A stretch of DNA of 64,000 bases from Ignavibacteria bacterium. Its GTDB lineage: Bacteria > Bacteroidota > Ignavibacteria > Kapaibacteriales > UBA4661. Shown one piece after another: positions 3,340-54,233 of the stretch (its first letter is position 1; each line of letters begins with the position of its first letter). A program made the translations under genes and the position numbers. The stretch covers positions 62,001 through 126,000 of the forward strand of contig JAAFIV010000006.1 of the NCBI GenBank assembly GCA_013298775.1, read 5' to 3'. The notes under the pieces were generated by a model. It had not been told where the DNA came from. It searched no databases and saw only the letters and a list, made by a program, of their open reading frames with translations.

Positions 3340-3488
3340 CTCTGTACACGACATTTTTTTTCATAGTGGCACAGACATTCTTGTCTGTGAGTATTGGTGC
3401 GAGGTTCGGGCTACAAACACAGACAAGAATGTCTGTGCCACTGAATCCCGATTCTACCAGCTTCTCAGAGGTTTTGTCGTGTACAAAG
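3340..3488. repeat. MITE family 1, copy A
   Basis: A 149-bp non-coding element. Ends are CTCTGTACACGACA (left) and the reverse complement of CTTTGTACACGAC (right). The inner arms TGGCACAGACATTCTTGTCTG and its inverse form a long hairpin. The flanks gggattttt and ggaatttta look like a 9-bp target duplication that has diverged (7 of 9 identical). The element ends 7 bp from the stop codon of the minus-strand S41 peptidase gene, so its hairpin may also serve as a transcription end. Confidence 0.8.
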
Positions 3489-28711: not shown

Positions 28712-28799
28712 GATGCAAAGTCCTTGAATAATTAAAACAAAAAAATGTGATTTACGCTGGAAAAGTTATATTCTCGTGGAGAAACCGCTCGGTACATAG

Positions 28800-28895
28800 T
28801 AAATAGTACACTGAGTAGATAGTACACTGAGTAGATAGTACACTGAGTAGATAGTACACTGAGTAGATAGTACACTGAGTAGATAGTACACTGAA
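28800..28895. repeat. 16-bp tandem repeat array (six units)
   Basis: Six tandem units of TAGATAGTACACTGAG, the first and last slightly varied, ending 1 bp before the stop codon of the next minus-strand gene. An array of this kind is likely to vary in copy number between strains. Confidence 0.9.
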
Positions 28896-28896
28896 G

Positions 28897-29322
28897 TTAC
28901 ACGCTTAATTTTTCAATAAGGCGTTTCTCGGTTTTATCCTCGAATTGTACCACAATCGCGTGGCTGCCATTACTGGTGATTTCCTTACGGATAACGCGAC
29001 CAAGCACGTTCCACACCTCGTGAGAAATCGTATCGCCAATGCCGTACTCGTGGCGCGGATTATACGAAACAGCATTCTCGCGAGAGATAACAAAATCGTC
29101 GTCTTTACTGTTCGCTTTTGCCTCTAATTCGTCTAAATCTACCAACTGCGAATGATGCGTGCGTGTGCAACGCGCCCATTGCTGCCGACGACCATTATTT
29201 TCTATTGGATCACCTATCAACTCATGCTTTGTTTCCTTCATCAGGAAGGGCGAATGGAGCGTAATATACTTATTTTTCCGACTGCGACGTTTGCGAGGTG
29301 TAGCCGTAGCTGTTGCTGCCAT
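28897..29322 (-). CDS. Small basic protein with C-terminal tudor-like (UvrD/PcrA C-terminal type) fold
   Basis: A 141-residue protein. It has a basic Ala/Thr/Lys N-terminal stretch (MAATATATPRKRRSRKNKY), then a segment with WARCTRTHHSQLVDLDELE, and a C-terminal module YNPRHEYGIGDTISHEVWNVLGRVIRK...VVQFEDKTEKRLI, which looks like the small barrel at the C-terminus of UvrD/PcrA and in many short DNA/RNA-binding proteins. I start at ATG 29322; a frame extends 30 codons further but those residues look non-coding. Function unknown; a nucleic-acid-associated role is an inference. The tandem array sits at its 3' end. Confidence 0.7.
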   Translation of the reverse strand: MAATATATPRKRRSRKNKYITLHSPFLMKETKHELIGDPIENNGRRQQWARCTRTHHSQLVDLDELEAKANSKDDDFVISRENAVSYNPRHEYGIGDTISHEVWNVLGRVIRKEITSNGSHAIVVQFEDKTEKRLIEKLSV

Positions 29323-52193: not shown

Positions 52194-53075
52194 TCAATAC
52201 ACCTCGCCCGCAGCCGAGCGATACGTGTTCTGCATGAGCATTGCAATTGTCATCGGTCCAACGCCGCCCGGAACAGGCGTAATTGCTGATGCTCGCTCGG
52301 ACGCGCTGGCAAAATGCACATCACCCACAAGGCGCGTCCCTTTTGGTGCGGTGGGGTCAGCAATGCGATTGATACCGACATCAATCACCACAACACCGTC
52401 TTTCATGTCTGCACCTTTCAACGCCTCTGGTACACCAACGGCTGCAACGAGGATGTCTGCTTGCTTTGTGAATACTGTCAAATCTGGTGCGGCGGTGTGG
52501 CAGATGGTAACAATCGCATTAGCGTTGGGAGCTTTTTGATACAATAAATTTGCCATTGGCTTGCCGACAATGTTACTCCGTCCGACCACAACAGCGTGTT
52601 TGCCTTTCGTTTCGATGTTGTAGCGAGAGAGAATTTCCATCACACCGGCAGGTGTACAGGGCGCGAAACAGGGCAACCCAGCAACCAATCGCCCGACGTT
52701 TTCAGGATGAAATCCATCAACATCTTTTTGTGGCGCGACAGCAAGCAAAACCTTATGTTCGTCAATGTGTTTGGGTAAGGGTAATTGTACAAGAATCCCG
52801 TGAATACGAGGGTCGGCGTTCCATTCCTGCACTTGACGCAAGACCGCACCCTCGCTTGTGTCGGCGGGTTGTCGGATAATCACGGAGTAGAAACCGAGTT
52901 CCTCACAGGCTTTTGCTTTCGAGGAAACGTACACCTGCGATGCGGGATTGTCGCCGACAAGCAGCAAGCCTAGCCCTGGTTGAATACCGCGTGTTTGCTT
53001 CAGGTGTGCTGTTTTTTCACCAATTTCATTGCGCAATGTTTGCGAAAGTGCCTTACCATCAAGTATTTGAGCCAT
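52194..53075 (-). CDS. folD: Methylenetetrahydrofolate dehydrogenase/cyclohydrolase FolD
   Basis: A 293-residue bifunctional enzyme converting 5,10-methylene-THF to 10-formyl-THF. Signatures: the catalytic Lys region VYVSSKAKACEELG, GILVQLPLP, the DVDGFHPENVGRL segment, the NADP-binding VVGRSNIVGKPMANLL, and the final PVPGGVGPMTIAMLMQNT. Its substrate is shared with the MTHFR domain encoded at 18881-20725. ATG 53075. Confidence 0.96.
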   Translation of the reverse strand: MAQILDGKALSQTLRNEIGEKTAHLKQTRGIQPGLGLLLVGDNPASQVYVSSKAKACEELGFYSVIIRQPADTSEGAVLRQVQEWNADPRIHGILVQLPLPKHIDEHKVLLAVAPQKDVDGFHPENVGRLVAGLPCFAPCTPAGVMEILSRYNIETKGKHAVVVGRSNIVGKPMANLLYQKAPNANAIVTICHTAAPDLTVFTKQADILVAAVGVPEALKGADMKDGVVVIDVGINRIADPTAPKGTRLVGDVHFASASERASAITPVPGGVGPMTIAMLMQNTYRSAAGEVY

Positions 53076-53151
53076 TGTTGTAGAGGTGATGAGTGTGAGG
53101 TGCTTGGGTTTGGAAGTGAGAATGAATCAACGCGAATGGCAAGCAAAGTGT

Positions 53152-53496
53152 ATCATTCTTGAAATACGCATTGAGAATGAAAAATGTCAGTCAAGAACGC
53201 GGATGAGAGGATCTTGAGGATGAAAACGAGGACGGAGAGAAGTCCTCACCATCCTGACAGTCTAGGTTTCATCAGCGTTTCAATCATCATTAATGCGGAT
53301 TAAAAGATAGTTTTTGACGCTGATTGGACTGATTTCACTGATAAACGCTGATATACAAATATGTTAGGCAAAATCAAAACAGTGCTGTATTCTCAAAAAA
53401 TCTGTGTTCTTCAGTGAAATCAGTCCAATCAGTGTCAAAAAAATCAATAACTTAGCTTAATTTTTAATTCGCATCATTACTCTATTCAAGAATCAT
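53152..53496 (+). repeat. Repeat family 4, copy D, split by a family 5 MITE
   Basis: Ends ATCATTCTTGAAAT and ATTCAAGAATCAT. Removing the nested 182-bp element and one 5-bp duplication leaves 158 bp, almost equal to the intact 157-bp copies. The interior has GAACGCGGATGAGAGGATC and TTTCATCAGCGTTTC as the inverted pair. Confidence 0.8.
53293..53474. mobile_element. MITE family 5, copy B, with 5-bp target duplication
   Basis: A 182-bp element from ATGCGGATTAAAAG to TTTTTAATTCGCAT, flanked by CATTA (53288-53292 and 53475-53479). Inner arms GATTGGACTGATTTCACTGA and TCAGTGAAATCAGTCCAATC form a perfect 20-bp inverted repeat. It lies inside a family 4 repeat and is therefore younger. Confidence 0.88.
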
Positions 53497-53519
53497 ACGT
53501 TTACATAAGGTACAAATGC

Positions 53520-54233
53520 TTACGCAATGTGCTTATGGAGCCGTTTAATTGCCAGAAACTCGCGTAGAATCTGGAAGGAATGCCAAAAACTGACTGTTGT
53601 GCGCTCGTCGTTGAACCATTCTACGGGAAGCTCGACAATCCGAAAACCGAGCTTTGATGCGATGTACAGAGCTTCTAAATCGAACATCCAGCCATTCAAT
53701 TGTGCGCGAGAAAAAACCGCCTGCGCCGCCTCGCGCCGAAAACCCTTGAACCCGCATTGCGTATCGGTAATTCCCGCAATAAAAAAGCTCTGAACAATCA
53801 TATTGACGACCTTTCCAAGCATTTCGCGGTATTTCGGCTGATGCTTCTTCACAAGGCTGGTATCAATACCTCTGGAGCCAATACACACATCCGCGCCCAT
53901 CTGTAACTGCTCCAGAACCCGCGCCGTTTCTTGCACGGGCGTTGAGAAGTCGGCATCGGAAAAAATGCAATACTCGCCACGTGCTTCGAGCATTCCACGC
54001 CGCACTGCCGCGCCTTTGCCAGCGTTTTGGGGCTGCTCCACTAAACGCACTGCCGACCATTGCTGTTCCCACGTGCGTACAATCTCGCTTGTTCTGTCCT
54101 TTGAACCGTCATTGACCACCAAAATCTCCACACTGTACCCCGCCATAGCGAAGTATTCATGTGCCTTTGCGAGCGACGCGCCTAAACGTGCCGCTTCATT
54201 GTACGCCGGTATGATAAAGGAAAGATGGAGCAT
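53520..54233 (-). CDS. Glycosyltransferase family 2, dolichyl-phosphate-glucose/mannose synthase-like
   Basis: A 237-residue GT-A enzyme. It has SFIIPAYNEAARLG at the start, the VVNDGSKDRT nucleotide-binding part, GKGAAVRRGM, the metal-binding DADFSTP (DxD-type) and FIAGITDTQCGFKGFRRE, which is typical of polyprenyl-phosphate sugar synthases. It would load a sugar onto a lipid carrier for glycan or protein glycosylation. ATG 54233. There is no C-terminal membrane domain, so it is a soluble or peripheral type. Confidence 0.9.
   Translation of the reverse strand: MLHLSFIIPAYNEAARLGASLAKAHEYFAMAGYSVEILVVNDGSKDRTSEIVRTWEQQWSAVRLVEQPQNAGKGAAVRRGMLEARGEYCIFSDADFSTPVQETARVLEQLQMGADVCIGSRGIDTSLVKKHQPKYREMLGKVVNMIVQSFFIAGITDTQCGFKGFRREAAQAVFSRAQLNGWMFDLEALYIASKLGFRIVELPVEWFNDERTTVSFWHSFQILREFLAIKRLHKHIA

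Follow-up and report, generated by a model that had tools for sequence, protein, structure and literature searches.

A family 5 MITE with IS982-like ends nested in a family 4 MITE with IS630-like ends in an Ignavibacteria bacterium, and the likeness of both interiors to the arms of GxxExxY genes

The nested locus between folD and a glycosyltransferase gene

The window, that is, the whole stretch of 64,000 nucleotides analysed here (contig JAAFIV010000006.1, positions 62,001 to 126,000), comes from the genome of an Ignavibacteria bacterium (GCA_013298775.1), hereafter the study genome, which comprises 5.19 Mb in 95 contigs. The congener G007 agrees with the public record of Candidatus Kapaibacterium sp. 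Prado071 at 1200 of 1200 bases, and the study organism would accordingly be a relative of the Kapabacteria. Genomes, contigs and loci are designated below by the letters G, C and L. In the window, two repeat elements lie one inside the other between folD (52194..53075) and a family 2 glycosyltransferase gene (53520..54233). Both genes are on the minus strand; folD is downstream of the nested elements, and the glycosyltransferase gene is upstream, with its stop ~20 bp from the outer element.

The outer element is an interrupted MITE of family 4 with IS630-like terminal inverted repeats (TIRs). It occupies 53148..53500 on the plus strand (353 bp), and both ends are GTACATGATTCTTGAAT-like TIRs, aligned with other copies. 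Its inner palindromic module is at 53195..53281 (plus strand) and has the composition GAACGCGGATG..GAGGAT..GAGGAC / AGTCCTC..CATCCTGA..CAGCGTTTC. The inner element, at 53293..53474 on the plus strand, is a 182-bp MITE of family 5 with IS982-like TIRs. The left TIR, ATGCGGATTAAAAG (53293..53306, plus strand), is common to the IS at locus L168 described below, and the right TIR (53461..53474, minus strand) reads TTTTTAATTCGCAT on the plus strand. Inside the TIRs, a left phased arm, TTTTTGACGCTGATTGGACTGATTTCACTGATAAACGCTGAT (53311..53352), and a right phased arm (53400..53441), both annotated on the plus strand, constitute the inverted pair I1, which is 88% complementary. The right arm is the inverse of the left one and matches an arm of the GxxExxY cassette on contig C16. 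The list of open reading frames shows none of at least 60 aa inside the family 5 element. The target duplication CATTA is present on either side of it, at 53288..53292 and 53475..53479 (plus strand).

These positions confirm the preliminary description, in which a 182-bp element flanked by CATTA was placed inside a family 4 repeat. The same description held that removal of the element restores the exact repeat length, 158 bp against 157 bp. Those values rest on boundaries other than 53148 and 53500. Between the present boundaries, the family 4 copy minus the family 5 element and minus one CATTA is 166 bp long. This is within the natural spread of the family, whose commonest length is 164 bp and in which 36 of 40 copies fall within 151-177 bp; the length is restored, though not "exactly".

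The 40 copies are the distinct ones with both ends among 50 loci examined, 30 from BLAST and 20 from the TIR pattern. The other ten loci were not used: each lacked an end, had one that was too diverged, or duplicated another copy. The family 4 TIR pattern has 67 matches, against 0 for the reversed pattern. Once the flanks of the insertion are joined, the window copy can be aligned through the insertion site to the rest of the family, where CGTTG or a similar sequence is usual at this point. The site is free of family 5 in the 39 others with both ends, three of which are uninterrupted copies in the window itself (L039, 5337..5501; L048, 26620..26783; L130, 33140..33304; all plus strand).

Four of the 40 copies are longer, and they contain four different inserts: the family 5 element in the window, a third MITE in L040, an element with CAGACAAG palindromes in L059 and a longer chain in L037. 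A joint spread of families 4 and 5 as a single composite repeat would have their contiguity in the window in its favour. However, only one of the 40 family 4 copies contains family 5, and the other 22 distinct copies of family 5 mostly sit at different places, between 5-bp duplications of their own. The copy and duplication counts reject the composite unit, which is left with practically no probability, and a true nested insertion of one family in another, as first described, is supported.

The nesting provides a relative date: family 5 is younger than this family 4 copy. It was earlier regarded as proof that both families are mobile or once were. This applies to family 5, which moved; family 4 was merely the target, and nothing about its own mobility is implied. 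The window copy of family 4 has no recognisable duplication of its own (flanks AAA/TTA). No orthologous empty site upstream of folD was readable in seven congeners, where the neighbours differ and the region is not syntenic (L144 and L147 by BLAST only). Nesting is in itself ordinary, and here it leads to identifiable types of transposase.

Another possibility is that the palindromes are retained in the spacer between folD and the glycosyltransferase gene for a hairpin function in RNA or DNA (a terminator, an mRNA stabiliser or an insulator), and that their mobility is secondary. The folding z values are -12.5 and -9.2 for the two strands of family 5 and -5.3 for the family 4 copy L122. In 4 of 41 consensus pairs both sides changed with pairing kept, a modest covariation. 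Strong folding, however, follows from palindromy and is no proof of RNA function. There is no terminator-like or sigma-70-like match in 53060-53540 and no Rfam match, and the copies lie at unrelated sites. Retention as hairpins is rather improbable.

The ends of both families and transposase-bearing elements in the genus

BLAST gave 47 matches to family 5 in the study genome, many of which are the two arms of one palindrome. They correspond to 25 loci. The fragment L021 was left out, 24 loci have both ends, and L014 and L064 are the same place, leaving 23 distinct copies. Identical 5-bp flanks are observed in 20 of these 23 (21 of the 24 rows); two more match at four of five positions, and L070 shows no match. 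Permutation of the flanks over the 24 rows gave a mean of 1.0 and a maximum of 6 identical 5-mers, against 21 observed. Without mismatch, the TIR pattern has 31 matches in the study genome and its reversed control 0. Two subfamilies are distinguished. Nine copies are 90-100% identical to the window copy, and the rest are mostly near 70%; the second copy in the window, L022 (31056..31245, plus strand, duplication CACTA), belongs to the diverged subfamily. A search of 40 other genomes gave a partial match in one congener. The nine copies of at least 90% identity and the single partial match in 40 genomes indicate a recent, lineage-specific spread. In the copy at L064:380-633 (C63), ~64 bp within one arm region are duplicated in direct orientation.

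The TIR pattern ATGCSRATTAAAAG was searched in eight genomes of the genus. Two TIR pairs ~975 bp apart, in G005 and G002 (L168 and L169), delimit an IS of ~976 bp with family 5 ends, and each contains an ORF of 293 aa. The IS982 transposase model NF033520 is by far the best model for both proteins, with 128.5 and 119.0 bits (E-values 3e-37 and 3e-34). Because these scores are under its cut-off of 130, the term IS982-like is used. The Pfam model DDE_Tnp_1 gives 41.7 and 43.6 bits, above its cut-off of 23. The MITE and the IS have ~17-18 bases in common at each end. Family 5 is a genuine MITE: it is short and noncoding, and it has TIRs, a 5-bp duplication of fixed length and ends common with an IS.

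The two complete IS copies, L168 and L169, do not show the 5-bp duplication themselves. TCGTA forms the left flank of L169 and also a right flank on a second contig (L175), a pattern that fusion of two copies during assembly would produce. The duplication is recovered in G006, which has 83 exact TIRs. Every one of them begins within 44-54 bases of the end of a contig, indicating that the IS982-like element breaks the G006 assembly. Reading of all 83 boundaries gave 39 left and 44 right ends. An identical 5-bp duplication, the same length as in family 5, links 35 of the 39 left ends to a right end; the controls gave 0 for 6-bp pairing, 12 for same-sense pairing and at most 11 for shuffled flanks. 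About 40 IS982-like copies fragment this assembly (L200-L282), and its contig ends can be paired via the 5-bp duplications.

A search for an IS982-like transposase in the assembled study genome, run without a positive control, found none. An autonomous partner in this genome was rejected on this result and on the TIRs themselves: no pair is separated by more than 326 bp, and, unlike those of G006, they are not at contig ends.

MITEs derived from IS982 and from IS630 elements are already in print. In the consulted part of PMC9769881, MITECca01 of Cardinium is a gene-less element of ~240 bp whose parent is ISCca4 of the IS982 family; it is lineage-specific and also disrupts other mobile elements. 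Judged from that part, MITECca01 and family 5 are alike in being gene-less with the ends of an IS982-family IS. Family 5 differs in its GxxExxY-type palindromic interior, in having no parent copy found in the genome and in an IS982 score just under the cut-off.

Family 4 copies are flanked by identical 3-mers, mostly TTA or TAA, in 16 of 40 cases (permuted mean 8.7, p 0.0012). An inverted 3-mer match, as would result from a longer TIR, is found in only two of the 40. A TA target duplication is the hallmark of IS630 elements; the duplication of family 4 is instead 3 bp, TTA/TAA, with the two sides varying together. The TIRs and the 3-bp TWA duplication of family 4 are those expected of a MITE. 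At contig ends of congeners, an IS630-like gene is bordered at its C-terminus by the family 4 TIR; no complete element is assembled. The 86 aa available give 63.8 bits with the IS630 model NF033545, under its cut-off of 100, and 54.3 bits with Pfam DDE_3, over its cut-off of 28.6. The mobility of family 4, which the preliminary description had deduced from the nesting, is supported by dispersed copies with their own TIRs and TWA duplications and by the presence of the TIR beside the IS630-like gene in congeners. MITEs of IS630-family elements are described in prokaryotes (for example, under ISMma9 in a table of PMC3852290). To the extent that the available portion of this source shows, they and family 4 are alike in being short and gene-less with IS630-type ends, and the 3-bp TWA duplication distinguishes family 4.

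G007 has MITEs with the family 4 TIR but no inner module, and the four that were read all have the TWA duplication. This indicates that the transposon ends and the inner module are separable.

Family 5 has ends in common with a transposase-bearing element in the genus, and family 4 probably has as well. Family 5 was inserted into family 4 by transposition with a 5-bp duplication; this is shown by the TIRs and duplications, by other family 4 copies in which the site is intact, and by the IS982-like partner that is present at full length in congeners. Nested MITEs matched only tools, a virus and eukaryotes in the literature searched, which included few subscription papers.

The third MITE, at L040:1640-1790 (C5), has a TTA duplication and inner ATTCGTG words and interrupts a copy of family 4. 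In G002, a similar element was itself struck by the IS982-like IS (L169/L175).

Palindromic interiors and the arms of GxxExxY genes

The interiors of both MITEs consist of inverted arms of short words ~9-10 bp apart. In the study genome, PF13366 (PDDEXK_3) has just two matches, on C16 and C89, and both are GxxExxY proteins of TIGR04256 (PD-(D/E)XK-like). The C16 gene is flanked by family 5-like arms and the C89 gene by family 4-like arms. The score of family 5 to the C16 arms is 55 (at most 29 in 200 shuffles), and that of family 4 to the C89 arms is 58 (at most 28). The latter comparison was made with copy L122, and the module type at 53195..53281 is the arm type of the C89 cassette. Words as short and simple as these could resemble each other by chance or through shared low complexity. 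With both scores far from the shuffle maxima and both crosses (family 5 to C89, family 4 to C16) at 16, such an origin of the likeness is very improbable. In this protein family, two genes have arms matching MITE interiors, and the MITEs themselves are gene-less.

It is very likely that family 5, as the MITE of an IS982-like element, was moved in trans into a pre-existing copy of family 4, a MITE of an IS630-like element, with duplication of CATTA, and that both are composites around GxxExxY-type palindromes which were captured between transposon ends and then spread. Because no IS982-like copy is found in the assembled genome, the transposase would have been supplied in trans from a copy once present in this lineage. 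In both MITEs, transposon ends enclose a palindromic module whose short words are ~9-10 bp apart. Gene-less GxxExxY-type palindromes would have been captured between the ends, an order of events that we infer, and the transposases would then have spread them. Against this reading stand the IS982 scores just below the cut-off, the autonomous partner not found in the study genome, the window family 4 copy without its own duplication, the lack of synteny upstream of folD in congeners, the duplication absent on L168 and L169, and the indirect derivation of the capture order.

A gene between inverted phased arms is called here a GxxExxY cassette, an unpublished definition of our own. The GxxExxY family is present in 150 of 296 genomes of a sample of the phylum, and some of these, such as G092 and G262, have 8-12 GxxExxY genes. 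Thirty-eight loci were scored: the 30 best-scoring from the 296-genome search, which are not a random set, two from the study genome, four named records and two from congeners. The two 300-base flanks of each locus were compared in inverted orientation, and at 29 of the 38 loci the match scores higher than in any of 100 shuffles of these flanks; nine have no significant arms. In control windows 1000 bases further out, 35 of which were measurable, the score never exceeds 27. A cross-locus null is useless, as the arms of related genomes are alike, and shuffles and distant windows were used instead. Self-similarity of the arms is highest at lags of 9 (0.31) and 10 (0.34), close to one helical turn; in shuffles it is 0.28.

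The G, E and Y of GxxExxY, one D and the E-x-K are invariant in all 38 proteins. For the putative PD-(D/E)XK fold, AlphaFold2 predictions for three sequences have a low pLDDT (43.6), and no sequence match was found in the PDB. Arm similarity tracks protein similarity (rho 0.44, p 0.0005, 29 loci with arms), which shared ancestry could also yield.

Beside the C89 gene, at L062:1905-2290, three gene-less palindromes of ~110 bp lie in tandem with TGAATATTGT-like spacers. They are of the same type as the C89 arms.

Between conserved flanks at hlyD and ftsX (L148, L149, L150, L152, L153), four genomes have different GxxExxY cassettes and a fifth has none. The gene is there in the study genome, G005, G007 and G001. 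G006 has a spacer of ~30 bases and no GxxExxY gene, and the G002 stretch ends in the spacer. Between the study genome and G005, DNA identity is 92.8% in the hlyD stretch and 88.4% in the ftsX piece against 70.7% in the GxxExxY gene, and the upstream arms score 19, the noise level. Conserved flanks thus enclose a gene and arms that are dissimilar together, which is compatible with replacement as well as with fast joint divergence.

In REPIN/RAYT systems, as far as the accessible text of PMC3116915 goes, inverted palindromic pairs accompany a gene, a tyrosine transposase, and pairs without the gene are scattered through the genome. The GxxExxY system is similar to that account in that inverted palindromes of the type belonging to the gene also occur without it, in the interiors of families 4 and 5 and in the C89 tandem. 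It differs in that the gene is TIGR04256 / PDDEXK_3, PD-(D/E)XK-like and not a tyrosine transposase, and in that the mobility of the module is putative. By analogy, the nucleases themselves might spread or maintain the phased palindromes, and the modules might have entered the MITEs in that way and not by passive capture. The arms at 29 of 38 loci, their match by type to the resident cassettes, the different or absent cassettes at one locus among congeners, the tandem palindromes, the invariant D and E-x-K and the arm-protein correlation are in favour of this. On the other hand, neither boundaries nor a duplication of a mobile module are established outside TIRs, the correlation may equal shared ancestry, nine loci are without significant arms, and the nuclease is predicted from sequence. 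We regard active spread by the nucleases as possible but doubtful.

With slightly more reserve still, a broader proposal can be made. GxxExxY genes and their inverted, helically phased arms may represent a new, very widespread selfish or self-maintaining system, in which a PD-(D/E)XK nuclease would recognise the words of its own arms, move or swap the cassette at sites such as hlyD-ftsX and seed gene-less palindromes, which would now be cargo of IS982- and IS630-type MITEs in the genus. The literature searched, which included few subscription papers, contained no description of arms around GxxExxY genes and no function for the family. The likeness to the MITE interiors is a handle on a protein family of this distribution and makes its role testable: whether the nuclease binds the arms, and whether gene-less modules follow the gene.

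Other repeats and cassettes were also observed. A palindrome family with CAGACAAGAATGTCTG is found at L063:350-482 (C56), in L059 (C30) and in the window at 3365, 22055, 32997, 39839 and 63779; it is present as an insert in one family 5 copy and one family 4 copy. The window also has a 16-bp tandem repeat, AGTAGATAGTACACTG, at 28782-28909, in about six overlapping registers. At L071 (C4:95200-95800), a palindrome with CATGATT words and without known TIRs is interrupted by another repeat element. Three Prevotella records (L087-L089) have GxxExxY cassettes with GACATAGAGA/GACAAAGAGA arms between similar neighbour sequences.
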